Source: Hallerella porci
Lineage (GTDB): Bacteria; Fibrobacterota; Fibrobacteria; Fibrobacterales; Fibrobacteraceae
Assembly (NCBI RefSeq): GCF_003148885.1
Contig: NZ_QGHD01000001.1
Coordinates: forward strand, 1-64,000
Direction of reading: 5' to 3'
DNA length: 64,000 nt
Shown piece after piece: positions 10,631 to 17,335 of this stretch (its first letter is position 1; each line of letters begins with the position of its first letter). Below the pieces are notes generated by a model that saw only the letters and a program-made list of their open reading frames with translations, ran no database searches and was not told where the DNA came from. Made by a program: the position numbers and the translations under genes.

Positions 10631-11452
10631 ATGGAAAAAATTTTCTTGGCATTTTTCTTGTTTGCGGTTTTAGGTTGTGCGGGGAATCGGGCGGAGTCTT
10701 CGCCTTCGGGGGATTCGGGCTGCGATGATTGTGGGGAACAAGGAGAATTGGAACTTGAAATTCACGATGAAAAAGGTTATGTAGAAATCAATCCGGACGC
10801 GATGAAAATGTGGAATGCTTCGGCGGTGCTCGGGAGTTTCCCGTCGCAGAAAATTGTCGCAGAATGTCCGGAGGAAAATAAAATTTGCCACAGCTTTAGC
10901 GATGATGCTGTAGATTTTGATTTGGCGCATTTTGAAGATTCGTTAATCGAAACGCGTTTTTCAAAAATGCAACATGAAGAAATGTTAGAAGGTTTACGAA
11001 TTCCGGATGCGGATTCGCTCGAAATGCGAAAAAGAATGGCGGCAATTTTAGACGCTCATTTTGCCGATGGAAAAAGTTTGAAAGATTTATCGCCGTGGGA
11101 AGAACGCGCCGATTTTCCTATCGTCTATTCTGCTTTTAATCGCGAAGTTTCACCGCAACTCAAAAAAAAACTGCAGGAAATTTTCAAAAAATATCGCGTG
11201 CGTTATGTGAGCATTCCCGTTTATGTGCAAGTGAGCATTCGCCCGAAGCTCGGAAAAAAAGGCGGCTTCGTTTGGAAATCGCTTTGGACTCTTTGGGATG
11301 TTCGTTTAGGCGAACTTGTCTTTTTGAATTATCAAGAATTTATTGCGGAAACGACAAGCCGAATTCCGCCCGAGCGCGGTTGGGCAAAACCGTTTGCGGA
11401 GCGTTTAGGAAAAGCGCTTTCGCGTGATCCGAAGACGATTGAAAATCATTAA
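10631..11452 (+). CDS. Lipoprotein of unknown function
   Basis: This 273-residue protein has a short signal and lipobox (AVLGC, Cys16), a Ser/Gly/Cys-rich linker (SGCDDCGEQGE), and a mixed alpha/beta C-terminal part (residues about 150-270) with VRYVSIPVYVQVSI and LWTLWDVRLGELVF, which looks like one strand-rich folded domain. No family is recognised. The start is set at 10631 because the lipobox follows immediately. The stop overlaps the convergent GH8 stop by 4 bp. Confidence 0.72.
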   Translation: MEKIFLAFFLFAVLGCAGNRAESSPSGDSGCDDCGEQGELELEIHDEKGYVEINPDAMKMWNASAVLGSFPSQKIVAECPEENKICHSFSDDAVDFDLAHFEDSLIETRFSKMQHEEMLEGLRIPDADSLEMRKRMAAILDAHFADGKSLKDLSPWEERADFPIVYSAFNREVSPQLKKKLQEIFKKYRVRYVSIPVYVQVSIRPKLGKKGGFVWKSLWTLWDVRLGELVFLNYQEFIAETTSRIPPERGWAKPFAERLGKALSRDPKTIENH

Positions 11453-12591
11453 AATTTTGAAGTGAGAAGACAGTAGGCAAGTAAAAGAAGCATGCCGTCG
11501 TAATAGCGCCACGTTCCTGTCGGCGTTGGCGTTTCCCAAAGTTTCTGTAAAAAATAGCGGGCGAGTTCTGCATCGTCGGAATTGTTAATGTCGAGCGCGC
11601 AAGTGGCTGCGGCGTTCATCGCCATTAAACCGGTCGTGAGTTCGCGGGCATTGGGCGCAGGCGTTCCGTCGATTTGATAATCGGCGAAAACCGTTTTTTG
11701 CGAACGGAAAAATTGCAGATATTTTCGACAAATTTTTTGTTCAAAATCTTTGGCGTTTTGGCAGATATTTTCTGCGGGCTTTGAAATTTCCGACGAAAAA
11801 TCTAACGCTAAATTGAGAACGACGCGCCAAGAGTCGCCGCTAAAGTAATGACTCATCGGATTAAAATTTGTCGCTTTCGGTTCGCCATTAAATTCGGTGT
11901 AATCAGCGGCAAGTCCTGTTTCGGGATGCATCGCGTGTTTTAAAAAATGGATGCTTTCGGCGTAAACGGCTTCCCAGAATTTGTCACCGGTTTCTTCGGC
12001 GAAAAGACGATAAAAGAAAAGGGTGTGATAACTCGGATCGGTAAAATCGTTTCCGGTCATCGGCGAAAAACGAACAGCGGCGCGGGATTCATCGAACATC
12101 GCACGGACATTTCCGGCGGGAATTTTATGCGCCATCGCTTGCAATAATTCACACGCTTCTTTTTTATAAGCGGGCTTTTGAAATTTTTTCGCGGCGAGAA
12201 GAAGTGCTGCGGCAAAATATTCTTCGCCATCGGGAGCGGCTCCCGGATCCATTTTGTAAAAGTCGGAATGTTTAGAATTGGGAAGTCCCACTTGCCACGC
12301 AAAATACGGCGCATAATTCCCTGAAGAATTTTGCAGATAATTTTTTGAAAATTGCCAAAGCGATTCGAAGAGATTTTCTTCGCCGAGTTTTGCGGCAATA
12401 TACATGCCGTAACTCATTCCTTCGCTGCGGATATCTTGATGCCCGATGTCAACAATGTAGCGGAGAGAATTTGTAGAAAAGCAAACGCATTCTTTTTCGG
12501 CGTCACCGAAAAAAAGTTTTTGAAAATGAGAACGAAATTTTTCGAGGGCTTCGGCTTCGCTTTTTCCGATGAGCTGAAAAGGATTTTTCAT
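11449..12591 (-). CDS. GH8 reducing-end xylose-releasing exo-oligoxylanase
   Basis: This 380-residue protein has no signal peptide and is probably cytoplasmic. It carries GH8 marks of the Rex subgroup: DIRSEGMSYGM with the likely catalytic acid Glu57, GAAPDGEEYFAAALL, and a DPSYH motif near the second acidic site. Rex enzymes remove xylose from the reducing end of imported xylo-oligosaccharides, so this would finish xylan breakdown inside the cell. Enzymes of this group are about this long. It is the last gene of a packed minus-strand run and overlaps the HAD gene by 4 bp. Confidence 0.87.
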   Translation of the reverse strand: MKNPFQLIGKSEAEALEKFRSHFQKLFFGDAEKECVCFSTNSLRYIVDIGHQDIRSEGMSYGMYIAAKLGEENLFESLWQFSKNYLQNSSGNYAPYFAWQVGLPNSKHSDFYKMDPGAAPDGEEYFAAALLLAAKKFQKPAYKKEACELLQAMAHKIPAGNVRAMFDESRAAVRFSPMTGNDFTDPSYHTLFFYRLFAEETGDKFWEAVYAESIHFLKHAMHPETGLAADYTEFNGEPKATNFNPMSHYFSGDSWRVVLNLALDFSSEISKPAENICQNAKDFEQKICRKYLQFFRSQKTVFADYQIDGTPAPNARELTTGLMAMNAAATCALDINNSDDAELARYFLQKLWETPTPTGTWRYYDGMLLLLAYCLLTSKF

Positions 12592-13560: not shown

Positions 13561-14748
13561 TTATCCTTGAACGAGTTTTTGGTAAAGTGAAAATTGTTTT
13601 TCAAAGCAATTTTTCCAACTGAATTTTGTGGCGTACGCTTCAGCGTTTTGCTTGAGCTCGGCTAAATTCATTTTGGAAATTTGAAGAATAGCATCGGCGA
13701 GAGCTTCGGGAGTGCGCGTTTGCAAAAGAACGCCCGCGCCCGATTTCGTCAAATGTTCTGCGGCAGCTCCTGTGTTGGCTGCGACGAGAGCGTTTCCGCA
13801 CGCTAAACTTTCGAGAATAGAAAGTCCAAAAGTTTCCCAGCCCGAAAGCGCAAGACCCAAATCGACGCTCGCATAATGGCGCGCCATTTCTGCTTCGCCG
13901 TGGATAAATCCTTCGTAGCGGATGTGCTTAAATTTTTGTGCAGCTTCTTGAACGCGCGGTAAATCGGGACCCGTTCCTGCGAAAAGAACTGCGGGCTCGC
14001 TTCCCAATTTTTCGACGAGAATGGGATACGCCTCTAAGAATAAACGCAGACCTTTTTCGTCACAAAAACGATGCGGAAAGAAAATGGTGAGGCGATTCGG
14101 ATCGCCGTCTTTTAATTCATCTACCAAATTTTCATCGCGGGCAGTTGGCGTAAACGTTTCTAAATCGACGCCGAGCGGAATCCAATCCAAGCGTTCTTTG
14201 GAAAATCCGAAACGATTCATGCGCTCTAAAACTTCGTCGCAACTCGCTTCGATTTTCGCGTAATTTTTGTATTCGAAACGCGCATAGGCAAAGGCTACGG
14301 ATTCGGTGATTTTTGCGATTCGCGGCATTTTCCATTTTTCAAAGAAGCGGCGCACATACGTCACCGGAAAATCGGCGTGCCAAAATCCGGTGAGAATCGG
14401 CGGCTTCGGCATGCCTTTGCACGCTTTGGAAACGGCCCTCGGAAGAATATACGGCGAACCGACTTCGACGATATCGGGATTGTATTTGGCGAGTGCGACT
14501 TTTAAATCGGCATTTTTCCACAAGAAGCGATATTCCCAATTTCCGGGGAAACGAAACGCTTTGGTGTGTTCAATAATGAGAGAATCCGAAATTTTTTCGG
14601 TAAAAGTTTTCCCGTCATTTTGCACAAAGACGAGAAGCGCATCGGCTTTATCTTTGTAAAATTTCATGCGTTCGAGATGATAACGGCGAACGCCGCCGCC
14701 CGAAGGACTCCAAAAATTATTGTAGTCTACGATGACTAAACGGCTCAT
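13561..14748 (-). CDS. GT4-family glycosyltransferase
   Basis: This 395-residue GT-B fold enzyme has an acceptor-side Gly loop (SPSGGGVRRYHLERM), the GT4 C-terminal signature with the donor-binding pair of Glu (ETFGLSILESLACG) and a FFPHRFCDEKGLRLF segment at the domain junction. It is predicted to use a nucleotide-sugar or related donor for an envelope glycan or glycolipid; specificity is unknown. It overlaps the DnaG-like gene by ATGA, so translation is probably coupled. Confidence 0.88.
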   Translation of the reverse strand: MSRLVIVDYNNFWSPSGGGVRRYHLERMKFYKDKADALLVFVQNDGKTFTEKISDSLIIEHTKAFRFPGNWEYRFLWKNADLKVALAKYNPDIVEVGSPYILPRAVSKACKGMPKPPILTGFWHADFPVTYVRRFFEKWKMPRIAKITESVAFAYARFEYKNYAKIEASCDEVLERMNRFGFSKERLDWIPLGVDLETFTPTARDENLVDELKDGDPNRLTIFFPHRFCDEKGLRLFLEAYPILVEKLGSEPAVLFAGTGPDLPRVQEAAQKFKHIRYEGFIHGEAEMARHYASVDLGLALSGWETFGLSILESLACGNALVAANTGAAAEHLTKSGAGVLLQTRTPEALADAILQISKMNLAELKQNAEAYATKFSWKNCFEKQFSLYQKLVQG

Positions 14749-16646
14749 GATTCTTTCTCTTTCATACGATACGATTTATCGGAGAAAAGTAAATTCGCTT
14801 CGTAGAGAATGGAACCGGAATTTTTGAGATTGACGGTGAGCCAAAGCGCGCCATCTTCTTTGCGTTCGAGCCAGAATGTCGCATCGGCGTCGCGCAAAAA
14901 TGGCCGCGGTCCAACGAGTTTATCGTCTTCTTTGAAAACGGAACCGCTGACAAAAACCGGAATGTCGAGCTCTTTGTAAAAGTCGAGAATCGCAGAAGAG
15001 CGACGCTCATTCAAATCGGGAATATCGCTCCGATCCGAAATGCGCAAATGGTCCACGCCATCGACGATTAAAATCAAATTTTGCTTTTCCGAAAGTTCGG
15101 TTTGCAATTCTTTGAGGAAAGCTTCGTATTGGAATGATTCAGTATCTTCCCAAATTTCTAAGCGATCGTTTTTGACGTAGCTGATAATTTTTTGTGTGGC
15201 GGTGAGAATTTGATGATTCACATCGTCGTCTTTATTTAACTTGTGCACATCGGTTTCCGAAACGCCCGAAAGCATTGAAATAAAGCGGTTGAGCGCTTCG
15301 CGCCGCGGACTATCTAATGCCGCATAAATGACTTTGACATCGGGATTTCCTTCGATTAAATCGAGTGCAAAAGACGAAAGCGCATGACTTTTGTAGCCGT
15401 AAGGTTCTGCCGAAAGGAAGTAATAGCCCGGTTGAATGCCGTCTAATGCGTGAGTTAACGCGGGGAAATTTTGTAAACGATAACCGACATCGGAATCGGG
15501 ATCGCGGCTGATCGCCGTGTTGAAATTTTCTTGAATGTCTTGGAGCAAAACCGTTTTGCGGTGCGTGCGCATCGTATCTTCTTCGGTATCGCGGATGCGT
15601 TCTAAGAAAGCCTCGGCGCCATCGGATTGGATTAACGTGTCAGCGGTTTCGCCCGCGGGAAGGATAATCGATTTGAATTTAATGCCTTCGGATTCGGCAA
15701 GTTCCAAGCATTTGCGAATGTGCAATTCTTGGTTGCGACGATTCGGTTCTTTGCGCAAAACGAGTGCGATGCTTTCTGCGCCGCAGGATTTGAGTTTGTA
15801 AAGATGGCTGCGGTTAAACGGTTGATACATCGTCGAAACGACGCCCGGAATTCCCGCTAAGTCTGCGGTCAAAACATCGAAGACGCCTTCGACGACAATC
15901 GGAGACTCAATATCTTGTTGAATGTTGAACGGAATGTCGAGAGGTCCTGACGCATACGAAATGTAAACGTCTTCAAGGGAATTCGCTGGCGTTGTCACAT
16001 CTAAAAGGCGCCCGTAAACGGAATGCAAAACGCCTTTGGAATTGCGCGCGGGAATCGTTAAACGCGGTTCGTGTGAAAGATCGAGATTGTCCAAATAAAA
16101 ACTGATTTCGTGGCGCTTTAAACCGCAGAGAAGTCCGTAACTATAAAAGGGTTCGGGGTCGCCGCTATAATAACCGATTCCGTAGAGGCGAGATTGTTCC
16201 AAAGTCCAACCGCGGGCTTTTAAAAATTCTGCGGTGGATTCGCTTTTGGTCGCGGCCCAGTTGCAGTAACGCACGAAGCTTTCTAAAACGCGGGATTTCG
16301 TGCCGCCGATTTCTTTGGCATGCGGAAAATTTTCATCGTCTTGAGATTTGATTTCGTCTTCGGATGCGCCCCAAAAATCCAAAGCTTCTTTGCGGGCTGC
16401 GTTTTCGTCTAAACCGTTAAAGCGGCTGCGCATAATGAATTCGACGAGGTCGCCGCTTGCTCCACAGCTCATGCAATGATAACGCCAATAGCCCAGGGAA
16501 TCGTAAAAGAATAATGTCGATTCTTCGGGAGCGTGGAAAGGACACTGCGAAAGCAGATTGCGTCCCCAACGGCTGAGCGAAACGCCGAGACGACGTGGGT
16601 GCGTTTTCACGCGGGAAAGTCCGATTTTGTCTTCTTCGATAAGCAT
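14745..16646 (-). CDS. DnaG-like zinc-finger/TOPRIM protein fused to a RecA/DnaB-like domain, motifs degenerate
   Basis: This 633-residue protein has a CHC2-type zinc finger (Cys35, His38, Cys58, Cys61) and a DnaG core-like region. The TOPRIM segment keeps Glu253 (VVEGVFDV) but reads LRKEPNRRN where DnaG has the metal-binding DxD. From about residue 390 follows a DnaB/RadA-type ATPase domain with a changed P-loop (AEPYGYKS, Gly before Lys replaced by Tyr, Lys419) and a Walker B-like LILIVDGVD. The order resembles T7 gp4 or Twinkle primase-helicases. With both active sites altered, it may be a structural or regulatory replication factor. The start is set at the ATG with AGGTGG ahead. It heads a five-gene run. 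Confidence 0.8.
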   Translation of the reverse strand: MLIEEDKIGLSRVKTHPRRLGVSLSRWGRNLLSQCPFHAPEESTLFFYDSLGYWRYHCMSCGASGDLVEFIMRSRFNGLDENAARKEALDFWGASEDEIKSQDDENFPHAKEIGGTKSRVLESFVRYCNWAATKSESTAEFLKARGWTLEQSRLYGIGYYSGDPEPFYSYGLLCGLKRHEISFYLDNLDLSHEPRLTIPARNSKGVLHSVYGRLLDVTTPANSLEDVYISYASGPLDIPFNIQQDIESPIVVEGVFDVLTADLAGIPGVVSTMYQPFNRSHLYKLKSCGAESIALVLRKEPNRRNQELHIRKCLELAESEGIKFKSIILPAGETADTLIQSDGAEAFLERIRDTEEDTMRTHRKTVLLQDIQENFNTAISRDPDSDVGYRLQNFPALTHALDGIQPGYYFLSAEPYGYKSHALSSFALDLIEGNPDVKVIYAALDSPRREALNRFISMLSGVSETDVHKLNKDDDVNHQILTATQKIISYVKNDRLEIWEDTESFQYEAFLKELQTELSEKQNLILIVDGVDHLRISDRSDIPDLNERRSSAILDFYKELDIPVFVSGSVFKEDDKLVGPRPFLRDADATFWLERKEDGALWLTVNLKNSGSILYEANLLFSDKSYRMKEKES

Positions 16647-16765
16647 AGACCACCTCAAAACTCAACTTAGAAATTTCCGGAATGCGGCACTTTTTGCGGG
16701 CGGGAAATCGCTGCGTTTTTTCGCGGAAAATTTTTAGGAAACGCGTGAAATGTTACATTTTTCGC

Positions 16766-17335
16766 ATGATTATTCTCGGTGTGGATCCGGGCTCATATAC
16801 ATCCGGTTATGCGTTCCTCGAAAAAAAAGACAGCGGAGAAATTCGCGTTTTGGAATATGGAACGATTTCTGCAAAAGCGCGGGATTCTTTTGAAGATCGC
16901 TTGGTAAAAATCGTCACGGATTTAGAAAAATTAGTCGACGCTTACAAGCCGACAGTCTTCAGCATGGAAAGTGCATTCTTTGCAAAAAATGTGCACAGCG
17001 CAATGATTCTCGGACATGTCCGCGGCGCAATTCTCGTCATGTGTCGTCGCCGGGGAATGGAATTTTTTGAATATAGTCCGCGTTCGGTGAAGCAAAGTGT
17101 AACGGGTGACGGCGCTGCTTCCAAAGAAAAAGTAGCGCTCTTGGTAACGTCGCGTCTCGGCATTTCCCGCACCGATGTAAAGCTCGATGCGACCGATGCT
17201 CTTGCGGTTGCGTGCGCACATCTCTTTCCACAAAGTGAATTTATTTGTAAAAAATCCACAAGCAAAACGCGGACGAAAAAGAGTCAACAACTGCGCGAAC
17301 TCATTTTGAAAATGGGAGGAAAACTGCCCGAATGA
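16766..17335 (+). CDS. ruvC: Crossover junction endodeoxyribonuclease RuvC
   Basis: This 189-residue Holliday-junction resolvase has the four acidic metal ligands of the family: Asp7 (GVDPGS), Glu68 (SMESAF), and Asp141 and Asp144 (LDATDALAVA). It cuts junctions with RuvAB; ruvA and ruvB are not in this window. The start is at the conserved MIILGVDPG; upstream in-frame codons lack family similarity. The C-terminus ends in a basic Lys/Arg/Ser tail. It overlaps the next gene by 4 bp. Confidence 0.95.
   Translation: MIILGVDPGSYTSGYAFLEKKDSGEIRVLEYGTISAKARDSFEDRLVKIVTDLEKLVDAYKPTVFSMESAFFAKNVHSAMILGHVRGAILVMCRRRGMEFFEYSPRSVKQSVTGDGAASKEKVALLVTSRLGISRTDVKLDATDALAVACAHLFPQSEFICKKSTSKTRTKKSQQLRELILKMGGKLPE

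Follow-up and report, generated by a model that had tools for sequence, protein, structure and literature searches.

The window analysed here is a stretch of 64,000 nucleotides of Hallerella porci (contig NZ_QGHD01000001.1), in which an open reading frame on the minus strand at 14745-16646 encodes a protein of 633 amino acids that we refer to as the pseudo-primase-helicase. Its ATG lies at 16646 and its stop codon at 14745-14747; an alternative TTG start upstream, at 16658, is less likely, given that the alignment of the orthologs begins with the ATG. The initial annotation had described a DnaG/DnaB-like fusion with CHC2, TOPRIM, and RecA domains, and its coordinates were right, with profiles and an AlphaFold2 model agreeing on the domains. 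The gene, its parts, and its two constant neighbors are as follows:

13561-14748, minus strand: GT4 glycosyltransferase gene (Pfam, synteny), overlapping the pseudo-primase-helicase gene by 4 bases
14745-16646, minus strand: pseudo-primase-helicase gene, 633 amino acids (open reading frame, family orthologs, dN/dS)
16422-16583, minus strand: CHC2 zinc ribbon, residues 22-75 (Pfam PF01807, whole-genome match at 16422-16583, conservation)
15582-16304, minus strand: DnaG-type RNA polymerase/TOPRIM core, residues ~115-355 (hhalign, PDB profile match, VIA-align)
15507-15563, minus strand: linker helix, residues 362-380 (AlphaFold2 helix 362-380, dN/dS of the region)
14748-15491, minus strand: DnaB/T7 gp4-type RecA domain, residues 386-633 (hhalign to own DnaB 376-613, PDB profile matches, fold Z)
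16769-17335, plus strand: divergent ruvC (Pfam RuvC, 3.7e-39), start codon inferred, the listed open reading frame beginning at 16682

Several independent comparisons define the primase half. Pfam finds the CHC2 zinc finger at residues 22-75 above cut-off (E=8e-9), and the DnaG core is matched over residues 22-360 by NCBIfam TIGR01391 (E=1.1e-21), at a score that falls short of the dnaG equivalog cut-off (77.3 bits vs 283.6 required). In a profile-profile alignment (hhalign), the genome's own DnaG aligns with residues 22-353 end to end (E=5e-20). For the remainder of the protein, the window's sequence alone gives weak Pfam matches to DnaB_C (E=0.0028) and to TOPRIM, and 43 of 46 family members match DnaB_C, the best at 6e-9. 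A profile of 24 orthologs searched against the PDB returned DnaG 2au3 (1e-10, profile positions 23-351) and DnaB (1.3e-5, profile positions 388-578). An AlphaFold2 model built from 46 family sequences is of moderate quality (mean pLDDT 76.7, pTM 0.56), with the zinc ribbon modeled poorly; it matches DnaB RecA domains with Z ~26 over 240-265 residues and the zinc-plus-polymerase fragment of Aquifex DnaG, 2au3, with Z 20.5 (VIA-align). T7 gp4 and Twinkle match the model in fold along the whole chain, and the domain order of these proteins, which the initial annotation had recognized, is indeed present in one chain according to Pfam, the PDB profiles, and the fold comparison. No usable match was obtained by hhalign to single T7 gp4 or RadA sequences, although the T7 gp4 fold matches.

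Had the pseudo-primase-helicase been the only DnaG of its genome, the initial annotation would have been refuted, but this is not the case. An intact dnaG (VEGYFD, DGDEAGRKA, and a DnaB_bind domain) and an intact dnaB (P-loop GRPGMGKS) coexist with it, as do an intact radA and the loader DciA. We reject a role as a substitute helicase loader as needless, because nearly every member of the family has DciA, whether or not it has the pseudo-primase-helicase gene. The genome also encodes a second, smaller DnaG paralogue of ~350-416 amino acids (L216:5150-6235, equivalent to G000:C3:40149-41234, minus strand) with a zinc ribbon and TOPRIM domain, the H. porci copy having an intact DQD. Of 10 Fibrobacteraceae genomes checked for this paralogue, 9, genus g6 included, contained it and G010 did not; its surroundings are chromosomal where read, and the stem of its clade is very long.

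Motif conservation was counted in 87 distinct Fibrobacteraceae family sequences. The zinc ligands C35, H38, C58, and C61 are invariant (87/87), and the basic groove residues R145 and R213 are kept. In the TOPRIM domain, profile-profile alignment places DGDEAGRK of the genome's own DnaG onto R298-K299-E300-PNRR, which bears out the earlier observation that LRKEPNRR occupies the DxD position and does not shift the acidic pair to another place in the domain. The first Asp has become Arg and the second, conservatively, Glu, such that the family reads R-[RK]-E here: Arg at 298 in 84/87, Arg or Lys at 299 in all 87, and an acid at 300 in 82/87 (Glu 76, Asp 6). Arg303 (86/87, with one gap) and Gln306 (87/87) are still invariant when redundancy is down-weighted, and columns 298-300 are then of about average conservation. 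Asp257 is present in 87/87 and Glu253 in 75/87, including the window's protein; it is missing in 12 (Gln in 10, Ser, Pro). Thus, the CHC2 zinc ligands of a DnaG are in place and its combination of TOPRIM Glu and DxD is not.

Because one DxD acid is conservatively replaced by Glu and Asp257 is invariant, the TOPRIM metal site, as judged from the alignment, is altered by Arg rather than wiped out. Primase activity is likely lost, and the mostly kept E253 and the acid at 300 may leave a residual metal site. The two deepest members of the family (L028 and L029) have neither E253 nor an acid at 300 and still retain the gene; therefore, selection in these members must be acting on something other than primase chemistry.

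In the RecA half, AGRPGMGKS of the genome's own DnaB aligns (hhalign) onto SAEPYGYKS, in which all three P-loop glycines are changed and Pro, Lys, and Ser are kept, confirming the reported absence of a normal P-loop. The family has a P-loop pattern of its own, [SA]xPFGLK[ST], in which P415-F-G-L-K is conserved in its own right (Pro415, Lys419, and Thr/Ser420 each in 86/87). The Walker B Asp529 (VDG) is present in 87/87, and the position of the catalytic Glu, 445, holds Glu in 79 and Asp in 7 of 87. The DNA-binding loop is ~16 residues shorter than that of the genome's own DnaB, as seen in a 16-residue alignment gap. Judged as an SF4 helicase, the protein has the Walker B Asp and a DnaB-type RecA fold and does not have the Walker A motif GxxxxGK[ST]. 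Loss of ATP binding is uncertain. Lys and Thr/Ser of the P-loop remain, as do the Walker B Asp and, in most members, the catalytic Glu, and this domain may therefore still bind NTP or hydrolyze it slowly. The earlier proposal that catalysis had been lost therefore stands for the primase motifs, which should not work, and is too strong for the partly kept TOPRIM acids and for ATP binding.

In the genome survey, full-length orthologs occur in 97 of the 111 Fibrobacteraceae genomes searched; the 14 without one comprise genus g6 in its entirety (12 genomes) and two others with a completeness of only 71-73%. Among the 167 genomes searched across the phylum, none outside Fibrobacteraceae had a full-length ortholog, the other matches being partial and canonical-DnaG-like. 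A scan of GTDB contigs returned only Fibrobacterota records, mostly labeled Fibrobacter, and a scan of viral contigs returned no relative. Phages and plasmids yielded no full-length relative, with matches restricted to the primase half at ~22-27% identity. Together with the constant chromosomal neighbors described below, these results uphold the view of a chromosomal, non-phage gene. Selection on it is strong: the median dN/dS is 0.045 over 206 ortholog pairs, and no internal stops were found in the listed orthologs. By region, the medians are 0.033 for the zinc ribbon, 0.036 for the polymerase domain, 0.007 for the linker (residues 356-385, the lowest of the protein), and 0.059 for the RecA domain, the loosest of the four. 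Purifying selection thus acts on a gene that coexists with intact dnaG and dnaB, a point that the initial annotation had proposed to check.

In a tree of the primase half, the family is monophyletic (100/100) and falls outside Fibrobacterota DnaG on a stem of ~4 changes per site, long branches that make the deep joins unsafe. A recent duplication of Fibrobacterota DnaG is not supported by this separate, long-stemmed clade. Within the family, L028 and L029 split off first, matching the early branching of DnaG from the same genomes. The DnaG of genus g6 branches inside Fibrobacteraceae after that split, and the pseudo-primase-helicase gene was therefore most simply lost in g6. In the GT4 tree, g6 lies beside the L028/L029 lineages, which also possess the pseudo-primase-helicase.

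The gene neighborhood is conserved in part. In 72/72 loci a GT4 gene comes directly downstream, either overlapping the pseudo-primase-helicase gene or separated from it by up to 26 bases (estimated from alignments), and this arrangement supports a putative co-transcription of the two. The other constant neighbor, ruvC, is divergent in 70/72 loci; in the two deepest (L106 and L107) the ruvC link is absent and the GT4 link retained. No sigma-70-like site was detected when the intergenic region next to ruvC was scanned for promoters. The initial annotation had placed the gene in a transcript with glycan and phosphatase genes rather than replication genes. Of these, GT4 alone is a constant partner; the Dabb, HAD, and GH8 neighbors are local (36, 8, and 4 loci, some loci ending early), and ruvC is a recombination gene. 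The best NCBIfam match of the GT4 protein is NF053787, N-acetylglucosaminyl phosphatidylglycerol synthase (E=9e-47, below cut-off), and the protein is possibly a phospholipid glycosyltransferase conserved across Fibrobacteraceae. The GH8 protein at 11449-12591 is weakly similar to BcsZ endoglucanase and lies beside the locus only in four loci near the window's genus. In genus g6, the GT4 gene persists without the pseudo-primase-helicase. By eye, an RNase HI-like gene lies just upstream of GT4 there, in the vacant slot, in the two loci with listed open reading frames (L160:2656-3252 and L158:3746-4657), with a long tail of lysine-rich repeats in one of the copies.

The altered motifs are not a matter of chance, as the same alterations recur in 87 distinct orthologs, and since strong selection keeps this motif-altered protein intact, its job is probably a non-catalytic one. 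On balance, we lean toward a domesticated pseudo-primase-helicase, that is, a vertically inherited, Fibrobacteraceae-specific pseudoenzyme that would serve as a non-catalytic, oligomeric nucleic-acid-binding factor in replication or repair, a structural or regulatory role that we infer from homology. On this reading, a protein with the T7 gp4/Twinkle layout would no longer synthesize primers and very probably would no longer translocate as a helicase. By the same homology, the linker helix and RecA domain would still mediate its oligomerization, and single-stranded or primed nucleic acid would still be bound by the zinc ribbon together with the retained basic groove (R145, R201, and R213), which the arginine cluster R298-R304, at the former DxD metal site, would join. 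At replication or repair structures, the protein would then be a scaffold or a competitor with no catalysis of its own, with ATP possibly serving as a binding switch only. It is tempting to go further and to speculate that, throughout the family, the arginine cluster has taken the place of the TOPRIM metal site and allows this factor to grip, independently of metal, either nucleic acid or a phosphorylated signal, a proposal that we advance tentatively and rate at somewhat short of an even chance.

Other explanations deserve consideration, and the RecA domain suggests the foremost of them. Perhaps only the primase half is dead, and the RecA domain binds and perhaps slowly hydrolyzes NTP, its nucleotide state controlling the binding of DNA or partners. 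The near-invariance of K419, T/S420, and D529, the acid at position 445 in nearly every sequence, and the conserved P415-F-G-L-K pattern would all suit such a switch. We nevertheless consider it rather unlikely, as the alignment with the genome's own DnaB shows all three P-loop glycines replaced and the DNA-binding loop shortened, and the RecA domain is the region under the loosest constraint. Alternatively, D257, E253, and E300 might hold metal in a functional but unusual primase that synthesizes primers under particular circumstances, for example during restart. The high conservation of these acids and the kept groove residues R145 and R213 are in keeping with this idea; the Arg that replaces the first DxD Asp in 84/87, the retention of the gene in L028 and L029 without E253 and an acid at 300, and the intact DGD or DQD sites of other H. 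porci proteins make it improbable.

The genomic context invites a different thought, namely that the nucleic-acid folds have been reused in an envelope or lipid-linked role, with the protein serving as a regulator or anchor of the GT4 enzyme encoded beside it. Its position directly upstream of GT4 in every locus and the resemblance of GT4 to a phosphatidylglycerol GlcNAc transferase fit this suggestion, which appears decidedly improbable when set against the invariant or nearly invariant zinc ligands and groove residues; in addition, GT4 persists in genus g6 without the pseudo-primase-helicase and therefore does not need it. As for a prophage remnant or a decaying gene, the domain order is that of phage primase-helicases, and phage proteins match by fold. 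Decay is refuted by the dN/dS of 0.045, and the intact reading frames of the listed orthologs, the constant chromosomal neighbors, and the lack of a relative among viral contigs render this explanation exceedingly improbable. In the distant past, the gene may have come from a phage or from a cellular source.

Few proteins of replication are as conserved as primase and the replicative helicase, and the Fibrobacter family comprises bacteria central to cellulose digestion. A fused, motif-altered copy under strong selection suggests a non-catalytic step in replication, in repair, or in their link to the envelope. If the more speculative proposal of an arginine cluster in place of the metal site is true, the pseudo-primase-helicase would represent a cellular pseudoenzyme of the replisome, spread across the family alongside intact DnaG and DnaB. 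Genus g6, having apparently lost it, is a natural control. We found no description of a motif-altered primase-helicase fusion in the open-access literature. Its parts are of known kinds; a family-wide, motif-altered cellular fusion beside intact dnaG and dnaB appears to be new.

Among known systems, T7 gp4 and Twinkle share with the pseudo-primase-helicase the one-chain order of zinc ribbon, TOPRIM core, linker helix, and RecA domain, as well as the whole-chain fold. Unlike them, it has altered TOPRIM and P-loop motifs in place of intact helicase motifs, is chromosomal, single-copy, and Fibrobacteraceae-specific, and has no useful sequence match to T7 gp4. Bacterial DnaG resembles it in the CHC2 ribbon and RNA polymerase domain, which align end to end over residues 22-353, but the pseudo-primase-helicase has R-[RK]-E in place of DxD, and a RecA domain replaces the helicase-binding C-terminal domain. 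With the C-terminal domain of DnaB it has in common the RecA fold (Z ~26), the Walker B Asp, and a mostly kept SLE-type Glu, whereas it differs from DnaB in having no DnaB N-terminal domain, no P-loop glycines, and a shortened DNA-binding loop.
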